A stretch of 20,478 bases of DNA from a virus. Location: positions 1-20,478 of the IMG/VR virus record IMGVR_UViG_3300022074_000472, one strand, 5' to 3'. Both the position numbers and the translations under genes were made by a program. The notes below the pieces were generated by a model. That model saw nothing but the letters and a program-made list of their open reading frames with translations, was not told where the DNA came from and searched no databases. Within the stretch, counting starts at the first letter, position 1. Every line of letters starts with the position of its first letter. Positions 2,817 to 16,140 of this stretch are shown here, piece after piece.

Positions 2817-2877
2817 AGCGCATAAAAAAAGCCGCGATAAACGCGACTGAAAGGGTAAGGTATAAAATTCTACTCAT
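2815..2877 (-). CDS. 20-codon micro-ORF, possible membrane peptide or leader
   Basis: An ATG at 2877 overlaps the fibre stop (ATGA) and runs 20 codons to TAG at 2815. The peptide would be almost entirely hydrophobic and ends AFIAAFFMR, close to AFVAVFFMR in the signal peptide of the secreted protein at 1935-2231. The similarity is also visible in DNA, because both stretches are built on the same hairpin plus T-run. It may be a real leader peptide, a decayed duplicate, or simply the coding reading of a terminator. No evidence of translation beyond the overlapping start. Confidence 0.3.
   Translation of the reverse strand: MSRILYLTLSVAFIAAFFMR
2824..2847 (-). terminator. Intrinsic terminator-like hairpin A after the fibre gene
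   Basis: On the minus strand GTCGCG (2847-2842) pairs with CGCGGC (2836-2831) over a 5-base loop, with one G-U pair, followed by seven T (2830-2824). It stands 27 bases past the fibre gene stop. Partial termination here would lower expression of the assembly-like and lysis genes relative to structural genes. Confidence 0.6.
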
Positions 2878-5216
2878 CTGGCAGTTGCTGTTTTAAACGG
2901 CGTCTCAGCAAATGCCATATATATTATAGTAGCACCGGATTCATTTACTGCGTGGTCTGTTGTTCTTGCTTTAAATCCATTACTTAACAAATCAATTTGA
3001 TATCCTGTTGTTTCTGCAGTGGTAAGATTTGCAAATACAGTAGCATTAGCTACATTAAACGGTGATCTTACATTATCAGCAATAGGCCATGAATCTCCGG
3101 CGTTTGTTGCATTTTTTGTAAGAACGAAAGCAGGGGAAAATCCACAATCTACAAAAGGACCGTCTGCACTTCCATTTCCAGTGTAGCTTGAAAATTTTGA
3201 GTAGCCTTCCACCTCTGCAAAACAGTAAGCAACGAACTGACCACTGCTGACATTGACTGCCGAAGCGGTGCCTATTGAAAAAACTGATGACGTTGGACTT
3301 GTATCTTGCCAGCGTGTTGACGATGTCTGCGCTGCATCGCTTTTATTTAAAGATAAAGTTTTTGTTGGACCTATTGCACTAAAAAAACCTTCCCAGTTTG
3401 TAACGCTTCCTGAAGTCCGCTCTTTGACCAAAATAACATCAGGGGCAACACCAAGCCCGTGACCGACAGTAGCGTTCGATCCTGTACCTGTGTAGGTGCA
3501 TATAGAAAATCCTGCCGTTGTATTTACAGATGTAGACGTTGTGTTGATTGTACCATCTGTGTTGCTGCTGCCGCTGCCGTTGGCTTTCCACTGCCATGCG
3601 ACATAATTTTCAGATGAAGTATTTACTTTGTCATCATCACCCAATGCGAAACCGTCCGACTCGAAAGCCGTCAGCGTGTCAGCGTCGGTGCTTTCTGCCG
3701 ACGTAGCGTCAGACGATATAATTTTCGTTGCGCCACGAACAGCATCCGTAAGGACATGACTGTCTGCTGCGCTGCGGTTTTTGATCCAGACCCAATCAGG
3801 TTGAAAAGTTGACAAATTACCAGATTGACTAATTGATTGCGTTGATCCGTTGCCCGTGTACAGAGTGCTTTGAAAATATTGGGATGGATCTGCAATTGCT
3901 GGGTCTGATAGGTTTGAGACATTCAGCGCTTTTGCACCTGTTGGTGGTGTGTATGTAAAACCTGTTTGACCAAAATTAGCAGTAATTTGTCCTCCTCCTT
4001 GCGATGAAAATGCAAACAGAAAGTTACCTGATAGTCCAGTGAATGCCACACCTTGGGATACGTTGTTATGATAAAAAGTTAAGCTTCCACCATTCAATTG
4101 AACGCCAATAACGTGACCGGCACTGCCAGCGCTTCCGTAGCTTGTTGCTGTGCCATTATTTACTTTGCTGGGAGCGGGTGACCCAGACCAATTTGTTCTA
4201 TAGGAGAAACCATTTTCTTCATTGCCAAGCCTGCTTTCACTTGTTTGAGACAAGCCGGGATCGTCATCTGCAATAATGCCTACCTCCCAAACATGTGAAC
4301 CCGACCCTGTGGCATCTATTGTAAATTCAGCATAAAAATTTTCAGTTGCTGGAAAACTAATCGTTGATCGCTCTATACCTGATCCGTTGCCGCTTCGAAG
4401 CGCCGTAAGATTACCATTAGATAGCGTTGCAGGATTTACAGTTGCTGATATCGCGTTGAATGTTGCAGTATTATTTGTCGGGCTATCGGTAACCTGATCC
4501 GCCGCAGTTAAGCCACTGCTGGTGAAATCATTGTTATTGCCTGAGAAGTCTTCCCCTAGATCACTAGCTGTTGCGCCTGTGATGTAGAAGCCGTTGGTTC
4601 CGTAAGCACCGCTGTACTTCTTCGGAATCCACACACCATCGTCTTTCGTTTCTCCGAAGCCGCTCGGTGCCAAACTTGACCCATCAACGTGATTTATTTC
4701 AGCAAGGTAGCCGTCAAGATACTGACCTGCGCCGACCAGTTTTCCAATATCGTGTTCGCCGGTATTGTTAAATGAAGTTTCAAAATTAAGTGTGGGATTG
4801 CTATCAGTTCCAAAGTCAGTGATCTCTGATCCATTGAGATAGAGACGAAGCCTGTCACCAGCAGTTGAATTAGTTGTATCAACTCGCAGCACTATGTGCA
4901 TCCAAGCACCGGGATCACGGAATAGCTGAGTAGTAACGATGCGATAGTTTGATCCGCTGGTGTTAAAACCAAGCGTCTCCGCACTTAAAAACATGAGCCA
5001 ATCATCAGCACCGGCTGAAAATATGGGCTGGTTTGCGCCGGTTAGATTTGCTCTTTTTACCCAACAGCTAAATGTAAACGTGCGGCGATCACCTGCGCTG
5101 CTGGGGGTACGATTAAGATAAGCAGAATCATCGTCATTAAACCTTATACTTTGATCAATTATATGAACGCCGCCCTGCCCTGACGCGCCAGCAAGTATGT
5201 TTGACCCGATAACCAT
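2874..5216 (-). CDS. Tail fibre with LamG-type lectin domain
   Basis: A 780-residue fibre, likely the host-contact protein. The N-terminal part (about 15-190) has the pattern of a concanavalin/laminin-G domain: SIRFNDDDSAYLNR, FTFSCWVKR, RLRLYLNG and YLDGYLAEI. A second beta-rich region with SPRY-like features follows (about 250-430). Two related modules then follow to the C-terminus, marked by WVWIKNRS..DSHVLTD / VAWQWKANG and by FVLTKNATNAGDSWPI / IIYMAFAETPF, a pattern common in marine phage fibres. It overlaps the short trunk protein at its start (TAATG). By eye the DNA is more AT-rich and poorer in CGATCG/GTCGAC-type words than its neighbours, suggesting separate acquisition. Confidence 0.8.
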   Translation of the reverse strand: MVIGSNILAGASGQGGVHIIDQSIRFNDDDSAYLNRTPSSAGDRRTFTFSCWVKRANLTGANQPIFSAGADDWLMFLSAETLGFNTSGSNYRIVTTQLFRDPGAWMHIVLRVDTTNSTAGDRLRLYLNGSEITDFGTDSNPTLNFETSFNNTGEHDIGKLVGAGQYLDGYLAEINHVDGSSLAPSGFGETKDDGVWIPKKYSGAYGTNGFYITGATASDLGEDFSGNNNDFTSSGLTAADQVTDSPTNNTATFNAISATVNPATLSNGNLTALRSGNGSGIERSTISFPATENFYAEFTIDATGSGSHVWEVGIIADDDPGLSQTSESRLGNEENGFSYRTNWSGSPAPSKVNNGTATSYGSAGSAGHVIGVQLNGGSLTFYHNNVSQGVAFTGLSGNFLFAFSSQGGGQITANFGQTGFTYTPPTGAKALNVSNLSDPAIADPSQYFQSTLYTGNGSTQSISQSGNLSTFQPDWVWIKNRSAADSHVLTDAVRGATKIISSDATSAESTDADTLTAFESDGFALGDDDKVNTSSENYVAWQWKANGSGSSNTDGTINTTSTSVNTTAGFSICTYTGTGSNATVGHGLGVAPDVILVKERTSGSVTNWEGFFSAIGPTKTLSLNKSDAAQTSSTRWQDTSPTSSVFSIGTASAVNVSSGQFVAYCFAEVEGYSKFSSYTGNGSADGPFVDCGFSPAFVLTKNATNAGDSWPIADNVRSPFNVANATVFANLTTAETTGYQIDLLSNGFKARTTDHAVNESGATIIYMAFAETPFKTATAR

Positions 5217-9465: not shown

Positions 9466-10073
9466 ATGACCTCTACAGCGCTAAAACTAATCCCGATCGT
9501 TTGCGCTAGCGTTTCGTCCCAAGTTACTGCGTCAGATGTCAGGCGCATTACGCAGGCAGGGCTTGCCGTAATAATTGCCGCGTCGTCGGCGGGACTTATG
9601 CGAATAGACGGCTCGATCGTAAAAGTCGCATTGCCCGACCCGTCAGAATTTGCGTCGGCGACGACCATATGCAGCGATCGAGCGCTTGAAGTCGCGTAGG
9701 CAAGGTAATCGCCTGCTTTCATAACGCCGGTAACGCTTGCAGACCATCCGTCAGTAACAAGTGTATTTCCGGTTTGCGACGCGCCGTTAACCAGCGGCGT
9801 TCCGCCAAGCGCACCTTGCGCGGTTTTACGCGCTGGATCGTAGCCGTAGAAACTATTTGCTTGCCCGCGTAGCTTAGTCAAAAACGAAAGCCATACACCG
9901 GACTCAGACGGCGTCAGGGGCGGCACGGTATATGTTGCGTACCATCTTGCCCCTGTAAGCTCTACGACTTGCGTAGCGCCGCTTAAAGGGCTTTGAAACA
10001 CCTGTGTGTTTGATTGCAGACCAAAGCTTGCGCTAGATACCGTCGGCGTTGTTGGCAAATCGTACGTAGTCAT
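9462..10073 (-). CDS. Distal tail / minor tail protein
   Basis: A 203-residue protein between the tape measure and the tail-tip proteins. The N-terminal half has RWYATYTVPPLTPSESGVWLSFLTKLRGQANSFYGYDP, and the C-terminal half has a beta domain with MKAGDYLAYATS, FTIEPSIRI and SPACVMRLTSD. This two-part layout is seen in phage proteins at the distal end of the tail tube, where Dit-type proteins sit. The function is inferred from pattern and position. ATG overlaps the tape measure stop (ATGA). Confidence 0.65.
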   Translation of the reverse strand: MTTYDLPTTPTVSSASFGLQSNTQVFQSPLSGATQVVELTGARWYATYTVPPLTPSESGVWLSFLTKLRGQANSFYGYDPARKTAQGALGGTPLVNGASQTGNTLVTDGWSASVTGVMKAGDYLAYATSSARSLHMVVADANSDGSGNATFTIEPSIRISPADDAAIITASPACVMRLTSDAVTWDETLAQTIGISFSAVEVI

Positions 10074-11863
10074 CGACGCCCCGATATTTTTGCGTAATTA
10101 CCGCCTCGATCGATTGCCTGAAAAACGCTTGAGAAAGTTTCGGCTTTTATGCGTTGCGCCTCGTCGCGCAATAGCTGCACGGTTGCCGGATTTGCGCCGC
10201 TGAAATCAAAGCTTTGATTTACAGTTACGTTGCCGCCTAAGCTTTCATTAGGGAACACGGTCGCGCCGCGTCGACCGGGAACAATAAGCTCAGGCCCCCG
10301 CTCGCCGACAATTGCGGGACGGCCTCCCGCCGCATATCCGCCGTCCGCAAAACCTAGCGCCGGAGCGCCAGCAAACCCGCTTGCAAACGTACTGCCGCCG
10401 CCAAAAAACCCGCCAAGGCTACTACCTAAAAACGAGCTCAAAGGACCGATTACGCTTTGCTTTATTTGCATCCGTAACAAGTCGGAAATAATCGAGCTTG
10501 CCATTTCCCTAAACGCGTCTTTCGCGCTTTTTGTGCCGTCGATAATTCCTAAAATAGAGTTTTCGAGGTTATCCATCGCCCGGACGCCGATGTTTTGCAT
10601 TTGCCCGAATGTATCCTGTGCCTGACCGGCAAGCTCCTCGAGCGGCGTTTTTGGAAGTGTAAACGATGCCGAAAGCTTTTGCATATCGGCGTCGACGTTT
10701 GTCGTCATGTTTTTAGATATCTTTGCCGCTTCCTCGAGCTCAAACTCAAAGTCGTTTGTGAACGCCGACACGTCGTCCATAAACTCTTCCATTTTAAAAA
10801 CACCAAGCTCTTTTTCTGTTGGCACATTTGCCGCTGCCTGACGGGGTGCTTGAGTTTGCTGCATCGCCGGGTTTGTGATCTGCGGCAACGCAATCGGCTT
10901 TTCAAGCTTTTCTATCTCCGCCCTTAACTTCGCTGCTTTTTGCTGCGTATTCGCAAGAGTATTAATAAACGCTGTATCATTCATGCCGCGACGACCACCG
11001 GCGTTTAACACCTTGTCGATGTCGGCAATTCTTTTCTCTAACTTTTCAAGCTGTTTTGTTTTCTTCTCGATCTCGCTGCGTTCGATGACGCCAAAAAACT
11101 TAGCTGCGTTTATTGCGCCTTCTATAAAGTTTTGCGCGATCTTAGATACGTCGCTCGCAAGCGTAGAGAAATCAACCTCTTGCATAATCCGCAAGACGGC
11201 TTGCATAAACTGTACCTGAATAACCTTAGACGCGAGCGTAAACTGGTCTTTTATTTTTTCAGCGTTACGCAAAAGGTTCTCGTCGATAATAAGCCCAAGC
11301 TTGCGGGCTTGCTCGATACCGGCGTCAATCTCTTTTAGCGAAAGCTTTGAAATTGCGATTCCAGCCGTCCGGCCAAAGGCTGCTGCCGATAACGCTGCCT
11401 TATCTTGCGCGTTTGTCATTGTGTCGAGCCGACCAATTATAAGACGGAACGCTTGTTCGTTACTGGTCGTGTTTTGCAACAGGGTCTTAAACTGAGGGTC
11501 GGATTTATTAAGGAACGTGTTCATTGTTCCGGTGTTTTGTCTAAGCTCGCCCATACGCTTGGACAAAGCACCAAGGCCGCTATCAAGTTGCCCCTGACTG
11601 ATACCTGCCAGATCAGTCGCGACCCGCAACTCTTGGAGAGCGTTGGTGCTAACCCCGACCATGTCGGCGGTCTTTGCGATTTCGTCGGCAAAGTTTACGG
11701 CCTTTTTTGCCGCTGCAATAAACGCGGCACCGATCGCACCGACAGCAACACCGATTGCCAACGCGCCTTTTTTAAGCGACTTCATTGCCCGGTTGACGCT
11801 GGCAAATGCCTTTTTCGTCTTATCCTCGGCAACAATGTCTGTGCGAATTTGGTTACGAGCCAT
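10070..11863 (-). CDS. Tape measure protein
   Basis: A 597-residue protein that sets tail length and sits in the tail lumen. The N-terminus is basic with a hydrophobic segment (about 33-53) and a predicted helical body with heptad-rich stretches (about 270-325). The C-terminal part resembles the lambda gpH C-terminal region (NSILGIIDGTKSAKDAFREMASSIISDLLRMQIK, about 438-471), followed by a Gly/Phe-rich low-complexity stretch and FADGGYAAGGRPAIVGERGPELIVP. At roughly 1.5 angstrom per residue it predicts a tail near 90 nm, shorter than lambda's. It follows the frameshifted chaperone, the classic order in siphophages. Confidence 0.9.
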   Translation of the reverse strand: MARNQIRTDIVAEDKTKKAFASVNRAMKSLKKGALAIGVAVGAIGAAFIAAAKKAVNFADEIAKTADMVGVSTNALQELRVATDLAGISQGQLDSGLGALSKRMGELRQNTGTMNTFLNKSDPQFKTLLQNTTSNEQAFRLIIGRLDTMTNAQDKAALSAAAFGRTAGIAISKLSLKEIDAGIEQARKLGLIIDENLLRNAEKIKDQFTLASKVIQVQFMQAVLRIMQEVDFSTLASDVSKIAQNFIEGAINAAKFFGVIERSEIEKKTKQLEKLEKRIADIDKVLNAGGRRGMNDTAFINTLANTQQKAAKLRAEIEKLEKPIALPQITNPAMQQTQAPRQAAANVPTEKELGVFKMEEFMDDVSAFTNDFEFELEEAAKISKNMTTNVDADMQKLSASFTLPKTPLEELAGQAQDTFGQMQNIGVRAMDNLENSILGIIDGTKSAKDAFREMASSIISDLLRMQIKQSVIGPLSSFLGSSLGGFFGGGSTFASGFAGAPALGFADGGYAAGGRPAIVGERGPELIVPGRRGATVFPNESLGGNVTVNQSFDFSGANPATVQLLRDEAQRIKAETFSSVFQAIDRGGNYAKISGRR

Positions 11864-12343
11864 CAGGTTTATCCGTAATTCGGAAATAGGCGACCCACCC
11901 GCAATATTCCTCGAATGTCATCGCTTCTATTTCGCTTAAGGTTTTATGGAGCCGATCCGCGAGCGAATACGCAGACATCGTTAGCGGATCGGCCCTTAGT
12001 TTTTTTCAATCTCGTCGAGATCGTCCGAGTGATCCATCATTTCGCCAGCTATCCGCGACACGACGCTAAAGTGCCCTATGCGTAACAGCGGCTGTTTGTC
12101 TTCAAGCGTAAACATTCGCTTGCCGCCCTCATCTTCCGCTTTTGCGATAATGACATCGACCAAGACACTGATGTCGTCGCCATTAATGCCTTTATACCAA
12201 CGTCGGAGCTCTCCAAGCGTTATAGGCTTTGAGTATATAACGGTCGGTGCACCTAACTCGTCCGGCCATTCCTCAACCTCGATCATTTTACGACCGAGGT
12301 TTTCGCTATGCGCTTTTACGCGCTCAATAATGGGAGAAGCCAT
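11853..12343 (-). CDS. Tail assembly chaperone long form (gpG-T type) made by -1 frameshift
   Basis: Shifting -1 at A_AAA_AAC (12005-11999) lets ribosomes pass the TAA at 11998-11996 and read 48 more codons, ending TAA at 11855-11853, 11 bases inside the tape measure gene. The product is 163 residues. The added segment, with SAYSLADRLHKTLSEIEA and MTFEEYCGWVAYFRI, looks like the gpT-like domain of other tail chaperones. The long form is expected to bind the tape measure and recruit tail tube subunits, at a low ratio to the short form. An ATG within the extension (11978) has no Shine-Dalgarno sequence, so frameshifting is the better explanation. Confidence 0.85.
11951..12005 (-). promoter_or_regulatory. 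Programmed -1 ribosomal frameshift signal
   Basis: The slippery heptamer A_AAA_AAC lies in the zero frame at 12005-11999, directly before the stop codon. Five bases downstream begins GCCGATCCGC (11993-11984), which pairs perfectly with GCGGATCGGC (11960-11951) over a 23-base loop. Two more outer pairs are possible (G-U and G-C). Heptamer, spacer and stem have the canonical arrangement of a stimulated -1 site. Confidence 0.88.
11996..12343 (-). CDS. Tail assembly chaperone short form (gpG-like)
   Basis: A 115-residue acidic protein between tail tube and tape measure. It carries KMIEVEEWPDELGAPTVIYSKPITLGELRRWYKG (about 19-52), resembling the ubiquitin-like, substrate-specific N-terminal regions of other tail chaperones, and ends in an acidic DDLDEIEK tail. 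It should keep the tape measure soluble during tail assembly and be absent from virions. The ATG overlaps the tail tube stop (TAATG). Its last sense codons form the slippery site for the long form. Confidence 0.82.
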   Translation of the reverse strand: MASPIIERVKAHSENLGRKMIEVEEWPDELGAPTVIYSKPITLGELRRWYKGINGDDISVLVDVIIAKAEDEGGKRMFTLEDKQPLLRIGHFSVVSRIAGEMMDHSDDLDEIEKN

Positions 12344-12729
12344 TAGACCGTTGAAGTCGTTAAGCCGCCGGAGCCGGTGATCGTAATCGTCGCCTCGACC
12401 ATACCGTCAAATGCTGCGCTCTTTTCGACCGACGCAACAATGCCGGTGCCTTGGTAAAACGTATCGCCGGAGCTTGCGCCTTCCGGGAAAAATTCAACCG
12501 TTGCCGACGCGCCGGGTGTAAGCGCTGTTTGCGCGGTGTCGGTTTCGTCGAAATATACTTCGACGCTGCCGTTCCACGATTTCATGCCGACAGCAAATGA
12601 GCGGAAGCTATCCCCCATAGCCGACTTTTCAATTAAATCGGCTTCCTCGGTAAATGCATAAGAGCGGAGCTCGCCAATCGCATTGGACCCGACCTTTACA
12701 GTACCTTCTGAACCTGTGTGCACAGCCAT
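12343..12729 (-). CDS. Major tail tube protein
   Basis: A 128-residue beta-rich protein with the pattern of siphophage tail tube proteins: GSEGTVKVGSNAIGELRSYAFTEEADLIEKSAMGD, WNGSVEVYFDETD, and a C-terminal strand pair GMVEATITITGSGGL. It polymerises around the tape measure to form the tail tube. A strong AGGAGG site 8 bases upstream is in keeping with a protein needed in high copy. It sits in the expected place between tail terminator and tail chaperones. Confidence 0.85.
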   Translation of the reverse strand: MAVHTGSEGTVKVGSNAIGELRSYAFTEEADLIEKSAMGDSFRSFAVGMKSWNGSVEVYFDETDTAQTALTPGASATVEFFPEGASSGDTFYQGTGIVASVEKSAAFDGMVEATITITGSGGLTTSTV

Positions 12730-13896: not shown

Positions 13897-15177
13897 TTAG
13901 GTCGTAAGGTCAAGAACAGCCGCGAACGACTGAGCATGACGAACGGCGACGTCCATATCCTGATGAACGATAATCCGCACCGCACCTTTTGAACCGTTAG
14001 TGTACGGATCGACGAGCACATCAGCGGCAGAGAAAAAGCCGATCATCAATTGCGCGAAATCGCCAAAAATCATTGCCGAGCAAGTGCCGGACGTTGATCC
14101 TTTGGTTAAATCGCTGGGAACGTGTGTTGTGACACTCAGCGGGTACCCATAAAGAGAGTCCCATGGCGCATCTAGAAGCATGACGCTATCGGTCGACGAC
14201 ACTTTTGCCGTCTGCGCCATTTTCGACTTAACTTTTGGATTGGTCAAAAATGCAAGGTTGTCGGTGATAACAGCGTTATCAACCTCGACCTCTTTGACCA
14301 AATCGACGACAGACGCCCAAGTCGGCGCACCACCGTTTGTGCCAATCGCAACAGATCCGATACCGCTGGTTTTTGTAATGCCGGTCGGCTCGTTTGAGCC
14401 ATCGCCCTCAATGGCAACATCCTCAATTTTTGCCGCAACTGCATTTAGCAGATCGTCACGTACGAGCGCTTCGACGCTTGGGTCAGACTGGATCATTAGC
14501 TTTCGCGAAATATCCGTCATAACGCCAAGGGTTTTCGGAGCCATCGTAACCTGTGCGAAAGTCTGGTTTTGCTCGGAAACAGCGTTGTTTTCCGCAACAA
14601 ACCCCGCCGCTGCAACGCCTGACATTTTTGGAATTGCAACGTCACCTTGCAGACCGGTAAGGGTACGCGCACCGAGCCCAGCAACTACAAGACGAGCCCG
14701 CAGCGCTTCGATGTACTCGTTACCCAAATGATCCGTCGGCTTTAAAAATCCACCGTCGGCATTTGTACCGGCGATAAGATCACGTTGCCCCCATGCAGAG
14801 GTCGGAACGTAGAAGCCTTTTGCGGCGCGACCGGACATACGCCCGATTTCGTCACTTACTTCCCGCTCAAAACCAGCGTCGCGCCAATCGTTGTTAGCAG
14901 CGGCGTTTATTGCCCGCATGAGCGAGTAATTGCGCTGTTCTTTTGGCGCAATGTCCGGCTCGGCAACGTCTAGGGGTTTTGCGTCTCCAATAACGTCTAA
15001 CAGAACGCCTCGGAATTGCTCGATCGACAGACCTTTACCAATAGCATCCTCGGCAAGGTCGCGTTTATTGTGCTTCGCACCCAAAGCTAAAATTTCGGAT
15101 ACGTTTTTTGAGTAAGCGGCGCGTTCGGCCTGAGCGGCTTCAGCACGCACTTGCTCAACATTAATTTCCTGTTCCAT
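13897..15177 (-). CDS. Candidate independently initiated major capsid protein
   Basis: ATG at 15177 (codon 322 of the fusion) is preceded by AAGGAG with a 9-base spacer. Starting here gives a 426-residue protein made of a helical delta domain plus the HK97 capsid fold, close to the size of ordinary HK97-type capsid precursors (385 in HK97). The join lies exactly between protease and capsid. This suggests that most capsid could be made alone and the fusion made in small amounts, similar in principle to nested protease/scaffold genes of other phages. Not provable from sequence alone. Confidence 0.6.
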   Translation of the reverse strand: MEQEINVEQVRAEAAQAERAAYSKNVSEILALGAKHNKRDLAEDAIGKGLSIEQFRGVLLDVIGDAKPLDVAEPDIAPKEQRNYSLMRAINAAANNDWRDAGFEREVSDEIGRMSGRAAKGFYVPTSAWGQRDLIAGTNADGGFLKPTDHLGNEYIEALRARLVVAGLGARTLTGLQGDVAIPKMSGVAAAGFVAENNAVSEQNQTFAQVTMAPKTLGVMTDISRKLMIQSDPSVEALVRDDLLNAVAAKIEDVAIEGDGSNEPTGITKTSGIGSVAIGTNGGAPTWASVVDLVKEVEVDNAVITDNLAFLTNPKVKSKMAQTAKVSSTDSVMLLDAPWDSLYGYPLSVTTHVPSDLTKGSTSGTCSAMIFGDFAQLMIGFFSAADVLVDPYTNGSKGAVRIIVHQDMDVAVRHAQSFAAVLDLTT

Positions 15178-16140
15178 TGGTTTTTTCTCCTTGGGAATAG
15201 GGGTTGAGGTATCAGCCGATCGACCAACGCCAACAGATACATCTGCCGGGATCGATACAATCGACGTTTCTAGTGGCGTCCATCGCACAGCGCGGTACTC
15301 GACCGTCCCGTCGTCCCGCTCATCTTTGGACATTTTGTCGATGCGATATCCGACCGAGATGTTTGCTCGGATTCCATCAACGACGTCTCGAAAGACCTCG
15401 TCGGCAAGTGCGCCTTTTCCAAAGCGCACGTCCGCCCGCAACACGCGGTCAGACCCGATTTCTGTACTTTCGATAACTCCGATTTGCTGCCTTGGATCGT
15501 GGTCAAGTAGCAGCGGCGCACGACCTGAGCCAAGAAACGCAAGATCGATTGCGTCGGCGTCGTGCACTAAAACCTCGTTTCCAAACGATCGCTCGACCGG
15601 CGTCTCGCTACTAACAGCAATACGCACAGTGCGGTCGTCCTCGTCGTAATCATCGCCTTTAAGATCGGTATAGCGGTGATGTACGTCGATTGGATTAAAG
15701 CGCTCGTCTTCGACCTCTGGCGCTTCATCCATAGCTTTTTTAAATGAGATAACGATTTCCTCGTCTGTCTCGGTTACGGCGGCTATGTGCCGTTCAGCAT
15801 CTAGTGTTTCCATTTGCTTCACCAAATTGTTAGCCCATGTTTGACCGGGGTCACCGCCCCATAGCGCCCAAGCAATGCGCCCGTTCGACGGATACCCGTC
15901 CTCGCCGGGGCGAAACCCGTCGGCTTGCTTGTCGACCTCATGGCGAGCGAAGAAAGAACGCATTCGCTTTACCGTTCGGATCGATAGTTCTTTTCGGTTT
16001 TTGATATCCCGCGCTCGAGCAATACCGATTGGCGTACCGCCGCGCCCAAACTCCTCACGCCAATCGAGAGCCCGTGTCGCTTCCTCTACCATGCCGTTAG
16101 TCGGCGTAGTGTTTAGGTCTTTGGCTTTATAGGTAGCCAT
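13897..16140 (-). CDS. Fused N-terminal domain, prohead protease and major capsid protein
   Basis: A 747-residue three-part protein. Residues 1-110 form an extra domain with GRGGTPIGIARARDIKNRKELS, FFARHEVDK and PSNGRIAWALWGGDPGQTWA. Residues about 150-305 are an HK97-type prohead protease with likely catalytic His214 (LLLDHD) and Ser262 (NISVGY). Residues 322-445 are a helical scaffold-like delta region. Residues about 458-747 are the HK97-fold capsid (GGFLKPTDHLGNEYIEALR, GDVAIPKMSG, NEPTGIT, QDMDVAVRHAQSF). The ATG at 16140 follows the portal TAA directly and has no clear Shine-Dalgarno site. Protease and capsid are separate genes in HK97; here they are fused, with an internal start able to release the capsid part. 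Confidence 0.9.
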   Translation of the reverse strand: MATYKAKDLNTTPTNGMVEEATRALDWREEFGRGGTPIGIARARDIKNRKELSIRTVKRMRSFFARHEVDKQADGFRPGEDGYPSNGRIAWALWGGDPGQTWANNLVKQMETLDAERHIAAVTETDEEIVISFKKAMDEAPEVEDERFNPIDVHHRYTDLKGDDYDEDDRTVRIAVSSETPVERSFGNEVLVHDADAIDLAFLGSGRAPLLLDHDPRQQIGVIESTEIGSDRVLRADVRFGKGALADEVFRDVVDGIRANISVGYRIDKMSKDERDDGTVEYRAVRWTPLETSIVSIPADVSVGVGRSADTSTPIPKEKKPMEQEINVEQVRAEAAQAERAAYSKNVSEILALGAKHNKRDLAEDAIGKGLSIEQFRGVLLDVIGDAKPLDVAEPDIAPKEQRNYSLMRAINAAANNDWRDAGFEREVSDEIGRMSGRAAKGFYVPTSAWGQRDLIAGTNADGGFLKPTDHLGNEYIEALRARLVVAGLGARTLTGLQGDVAIPKMSGVAAAGFVAENNAVSEQNQTFAQVTMAPKTLGVMTDISRKLMIQSDPSVEALVRDDLLNAVAAKIEDVAIEGDGSNEPTGITKTSGIGSVAIGTNGGAPTWASVVDLVKEVEVDNAVITDNLAFLTNPKVKSKMAQTAKVSSTDSVMLLDAPWDSLYGYPLSVTTHVPSDLTKGSTSGTCSAMIFGDFAQLMIGFFSAADVLVDPYTNGSKGAVRIIVHQDMDVAVRHAQSFAAVLDLTT
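15187..15192 (-). promoter_or_regulatory. Internal ribosome binding site at the protease-capsid junction
   Basis: AAGGAG reads on the minus strand at 15192-15187, 9 bases before the in-frame ATG at 15177. It encodes part of a Lys-rich linker, so coding need alone could explain an A/G-rich stretch, but match and spacing are near ideal. Confidence 0.6.

Follow-up and report, generated by a model that had tools for sequence, protein, structure and literature searches.

The −1 frameshift of the lambda G/GT tail chaperone was reportedly described by Xu, Hendrix, and Duda in 2004, together with many phage counterparts. Frameshifting in tail chaperones is known, and in some phages it seems to operate without a stimulator. 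The lambda type is covered in a review that also places the internal Shine-Dalgarno stimulator of dnaX 10 nt upstream (PMC5009743). Rare dnaX variants (PMC5009743), like the Rous sarcoma and barley yellow dwarf viruses (PMC4373837), have a stop codon immediately after the slip site. In addition, a −1 frameshift was reported for Rhodobacter phages in their genome announcement, and RcCronus, RcRhea, and RcSaxon (Cronusvirus) already carry an annotated joined coding sequence (PMC4882933).

Here, we analyze a junction of this kind in a 20,478-base IMG/VR record, the whole of which we call the window. The locus resembles lambda G/GT in the order major tail protein, G, (T), and tape measure, in carrying an X_XXY_YYZ heptamer toward the 3′ end of G, and in having a T-like extension. 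It differs from the lambda type in its flush stop codon, its AAC A-site codon, its covarying hairpin, a T segment of only about 48 amino acids, and a Shine-Dalgarno–like (SD-like) element present in many relatives. Like the three-part cassettes of Escherichia coli dnaX and the IS911 type, it combines a heptamer with a 3′ stem-loop, and its 5-nt spacer falls within 5 to 8 nt. Unlike dnaX-type sites, however, it has AAC rather than AAG in the A-site, and a stop directly follows the heptamer; the SD-like element of relatives lies 7 nt before the heptamer, as opposed to 10 nt in dnaX, and is lacking in the window. The Rous sarcoma and barley yellow dwarf viruses share the zero-frame stop directly after the heptamer, although these are eukaryotic viruses and the genes are unrelated.

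The Cronusvirus phages RcCronus, RcRhea, and RcSaxon encode distant homologues of the window's major tail protein and G. Their slip site is G_GGA_AAC flush with TGA, whereas that of the window is A_AAA_AAC, and their hairpin differs from the window's in sequence and place. A preliminary description of this DNA, made from the sequence alone, called tail chaperone frameshifting an established feature; the frameshift is already annotated in these three phages. The flush stop, AAC A-site, covarying hairpin, and SD-like GAGG were not found described for tail chaperones in the literature searched, the phage-site table of Xu et al. lying outside that search. Three family-level features go beyond the preliminary finding: a selected flush stop, a mostly AAC A-site, and a recurrent GAGG at −11.

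Genomic context and anatomy of the junction

The gene order of the window is terminase, portal, protease-capsid fusion, head-tail genes, major tail protein, G, (T), tape measure, and distal tail. The junction is read on the minus strand. The major tail protein gene (12343..12729; phrog_1407, E 1.3e-12) lies upstream of the G ORF (11996..12343; zero frame, 115 aa), and its stop overlaps the start ATG of G (TAATG). G matches the tail assembly chaperone family phrog_344 (E 1.4e-4), and a close relative, L002, has a 65% identical protein at the same position. No Rfam family was found in the window, and no solved structure was found for G. Among the other structural genes, 13897-16140 encodes a major capsid protein of 747 aa to which an S78 protease-like domain is fused at the front; another N-terminal segment matches phrog_2859. 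Adjoining the tail genes, 2874-5216 encodes a 780-aa protein with SPRY and DUF7483 domains, possibly a host-recognition protein.

The junction reads GAA AAA AAC TAA GG GCCGATCCGC (23 nt) GCGGATCGGC. The slippery heptamer A_AAA_AAC (11999..12005) is in the zero frame of the G ORF, and its last base touches the zero-frame (intercodon) stop TAA (11996..11998). Beyond a 5-nt spacer, TAAGG, lies a stem supported by folding and covariation, with a 5′ arm GCCGATCCGC (11984..11993) and a 3′ arm GCGGATCGGC (11951..11960) that encodes ADRL in the −1 frame. The 23-nt loop between them (11961..11983) holds an ATG of the −1 frame (11978-11976). The putative T-like extension (11853..11999) comprises 48 codons, LRADPLTMSAYSLADRLHK...KPDGS*, is supported by a match to phrog_337 (E 4e-4) and by selection on the −1 frame of relatives, and would yield a GT fusion of 163 aa. 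Its stop (11855-11853) lies 11 nt inside the tape measure ORF (10070..11863, with its ATG at 11863-11861).

Every coordinate given in the preliminary description for heptamer, stop, spacer, stem, and loop checks against the minus-strand sequence, and on rereading, the −1 frame is indeed open for 48 codons and ends within the tape measure gene. Its proposal of a gpT-like −1 segment agrees with the weak family matches (phrog_344 for G and phrog_337, a tail protein, for the −1 segment) and with the gene context, which fit lambda G/GT. The label "textbook" undersells two features that depart from the E. coli textbook form, the flush placement of the stop and AAC as the A-site codon. The −1 peptide it put forward for detection, SAYSLADRLHK, needs replacing: trypsin would cut within it, and the natural peptide is ADPLTMSAYSLADR.

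In-frame heptamers as such are common in the window (33 in 22 genes); one flush with the stop is found in G alone (1/22). Perfect stems of at least 10 bp placed 3 to 9 nt downstream occur at 0.14% of positions. The RNA fold at the junction has an energy of −26.1 kcal/mol (z −3.2), and 0 of 200 shuffles are as stable. On the sequence evidence, we consider a lambda G/GT-type cassette for −1 programmed ribosomal frameshifting very probable here.

Conservation of the junction

Scans with major tail protein and G proteins returned 232 usable junctions, 70 of which are nonredundant (>85% identical sequences removed). Single proteins served as queries, since a profile built from 17 divergent G proteins yielded nothing usable for scanning collections. 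When used as query, the window's major tail protein found no relative in bacterial genomes; that of a Sinorhizobium phage matched three rhizobial loci. One junction, L068, looks normal but probably has a sequencing frameshift ahead of it; counts made later exclude it (hence 69).

Heptamer and stop are flush in 64 of the 70 junctions, the heptamer being A_AAA_AAC (36), G_GGA_AAC (22), A_AAA_AAG (3), or A_AAA_AAT (3). Three of the non-flush junctions are one codon off, an arrangement seen in Sinorhizobium phage phi3LM21; in L042 the stop is lost and G ends 18 nt (six codons) later, and in L057 an imperfect heptamer precedes a 9-bp stem. By comparison, a flush heptamer is present at only 10 of 923 other ORF ends in the relatives' loci. 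When one sequence is kept per 50% G identity, 17 of 21 remain flush. Relatives are non-independent samples that our tests treat as independent, so the z values overstate certainty, although the direction is clear. The preliminary description would have given up its reading if heptamer and stem were unconserved in homologues; we find the heptamer class kept in 68 of 70 junctions and compensatory changes within the stem-bearing lineage. L002 reads GAA AAA AAC TAG and has a stem with altered pairs. Three further relatives (L127, L128, and L131) have the slip site A_AAA_AAT TAG, with an amber zero-frame stop and no significant fold.

The variety of heptamers also bears on whether the frame is changed by RNA polymerase rather than by the ribosome. 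The window carries a run of seven A, and polymerases are known to slip where about nine A stand in a row (PMC5009743). Yet 22 of 70 relatives use G_GGA_AAC, which has three A only, and many A_AAA_AAC relatives have just six; the lack of a long A run in the G_GGA_AAC members speaks against this route. So do the phase relative to the G frame, the flush stop, the hairpin, and the SD-like element upstream, all of which indicate the ribosome, leaving slippage by polymerase extremely unlikely. Judging from the 232 homologous junctions (70 nonredundant), it is near certain that the family relies on −1 programmed ribosomal frameshifting.

Coding in the −1 frame

Among 42 independent close pairs, differences in the −1 frame fall 176/85/461 by codon position, and the ratio of nonsynonymous to synonymous change is 0.63, compared with 4.03 under neutral (random) change. 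This pattern indicates strong purifying selection on a protein-coding −1 frame. Even where the stop has been lost, in L042, the −1 reading LANDPELKAKYVLAETLHK is still conserved.

An alternative reading is that T is a separate small protein, started at the loop ATG (11978-11976) by coupling to the termination of G. That ATG is in frame, 18 nt past the stop, and some relatives likewise have an ATG at the loop place. However, no ATG, GTG, or TTG is found in the first 16 −1 codons of 23 of 69 relatives, and no ATG or GTG in 44 of 69. Thus, separate initiation cannot be the family mechanism. The residues ahead of the ATG (L-K/R-x-D-P) are conserved, and −1 codons 2 to 12 show a third-position excess. 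Moreover, the two arms of the stem seal off the ATG, and a gene start would explain neither the heptamer nor the GAGG at −11. We therefore regard a separately started T as highly improbable, and read the −1 frame as the extension of G.

A downstream hairpin

Downstream folding is stronger at the junction than elsewhere (mean z −2.2 at 69 junctions versus −0.3 in 278 control windows, p 2e-11), although z is above −1 in 22 of the 69. RNAalifold found no consensus structure in the mixed alignment because this includes hairpin-less lineages; the stem was then tested in 32 sequences picked solely because their 3′ arm encodes ADRL. Of these, 23 of 32 pair the Arg codon's third base with its partner (10.9 expected from shuffling), and 24 of 32 do so for that of the Ala codon (13.1 expected). 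Both are four-fold degenerate positions, and both pairs switch types: C-G, G-C, and A-T in one, and C-G, A-T, and T-A in the other. Thus, the search for compensatory changes that the preliminary description recommended reveals covariation at degenerate third bases.

It might still be argued that coding for DP...ADRL produces the paired arms incidentally and that there is no functional stem. The arms do fall in conserved codons, the inner pairs are unconserved, and the hairpin is missing in several subgroups. Against this, the Ala and Arg codons change at their third positions along with the partner bases, and other lineages form stems from unlike sequences at equal spacing (L004, L023, L057, L065, and HTVC111P). 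Where other residues are encoded, the arms can be wholly different and still complementary, as in L004 (GCGTCTCC/GGAGACGC), L065 (CCTCTC/GAGAGG), and L023. A by-product of coding is thus very unlikely. The covariation, set beside the 22 junctions without a strong fold, shows the stem to be frequent and selected, but not universal.

An upstream SD-like element in relatives

In 44 of 69 junctions (e.g., L035, L044, L083, and L092), a Shine-Dalgarno–like GAGG occupies exactly positions −11 to −8, counted from the heptamer. Where a Glu codon followed by G occupies this place, the codon is GAG in 44 of 51 cases, compared with 15.7 expected from each locus (z 9). The anti-SD energy peaks sharply there, at about −4.5 kcal/mol versus near 0 around it; at the same place, other gene ends average −1.6, versus −4.9 for G. 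Because no start codon is suitably spaced from it, GAGG is unlikely to be a start signal. By analogy with dnaX, it is probably a second stimulator in these relatives, and not clearly one in the window. There, a clear SD-like element is absent: only a weak GAG remnant (12011..12013) lies near this place, with an energy of −3.0 kcal/mol against a family mean near −4.5. Thus, the window's cassette consists of heptamer, flush stop, and hairpin. We also looked for a trade-off between the SD-like element and the hairpin and found none; the weak rank correlation had the opposite sign (rho 0.26, p 0.03).

Proposed mechanism

We propose that ribosomes decode Lys-Asn on the heptamer with the hairpin at their entry. 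Most would terminate at the flush TAA to give the 115-aa G. A minority, pressed by the hairpin 5 nt ahead, would re-pair one base back on A_AAA_AAC and continue Leu-Arg-Ala-Asp... through the T-like segment to give the 163-aa GT. By analogy with lambda, G would coat the tape measure protein, and the T part would recruit major tail protein.

A_AAA_AAC slips far less than A_AAA_AAG in E. coli (PMC5009743). In this family the A-site codon is mostly AAC, and just 3 of the 64 flush junctions carry AAG. Weak slipping on AAC may be the reason that stimulators are kept; alternatively, slipping may be different in alphaproteobacterial hosts. In 62 of 68 junctions (11853-11863 in the window; also L002 and others), the −1 ORF and the tape measure gene overlap at the end of the former and the start of the latter. 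Since shifted ribosomes might thereby feed tape measure translation, the two could be coupled.

Selection on the flush stop

Where the heptamer ends in C, a CTN (Leu) codon of the −1 frame lies over the stop. A stop is formed in 58 of 59 such junctions, compared with 29 expected from the CTN usage of each locus and the first base of the next codon, and the codon is CTA in 42 compared with 13.6 expected. The stop is therefore maintained on its own account, and not solely via the −1 protein.

Two explanations can be offered. The stop may have no role in slippage and be kept only to fix the C-terminus of G, to which we give an even chance. G ends in a conserved ...EKN or ...SGN, and L042, which ends six codons later after losing its stop, shows that flushness is not essential. 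However, losing the stop would cost little. Without it, the next zero-frame stop would come at a median of 24 nt, near the mean stop-to-heptamer distances of 26 and 36 nt in two other phage sets (PMC10885494), yet the stop is held far beyond the codon-usage expectation. A stop at this position also lowered −1 frameshifting in bacteria and conferred RF2 sensitivity (PMC4373837).

Alternatively, and more tentatively, the flush stop might be a working part of the cassette, with an A-site release factor competing with the slip; we consider this possible but less probable than a role confined to the C-terminus. If it were so, the SD-like element, heptamer, and hairpin would push toward slippage while the stop pulls toward termination, and the GT:G ratio would depend on the termination capacity of the cell. 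Given coupling via the overlapping T stop, tape measure synthesis would likewise depend on it. The cassette offers a natural system for studying stop-codon tuning of adjacent −1 slip sites in bacteria.

Distribution and annotation

The junction is present in a large family that includes isolates on Pelagibacter (HTVC026P/111P/112P/202P), roseobacters (Roseobacter CRP-406/811/823 and Dinoroseobacter R4C), and Rhodobacter (RcCronus/RcRhea), forming a compact cassette whose parts are readable from synonymous sites. The G/GT frameshift is unannotated in Pelagibacter phages and in most Roseobacter-group relatives. The expectation that standard gene calling overlooks the long form is borne out: among the isolates examined, only RcCronus, RcRhea, and RcSaxon have a joined coding sequence. 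The cassette provides a simple annotation rule for a gene overlooked by callers in most of these genomes. In HTVC111P (L084 2802-2954) and HTVC112P (L094 2802-2948), short reverse-strand genes, gp45 and gp41, respectively, are annotated over the −1 frame and the tape measure start.
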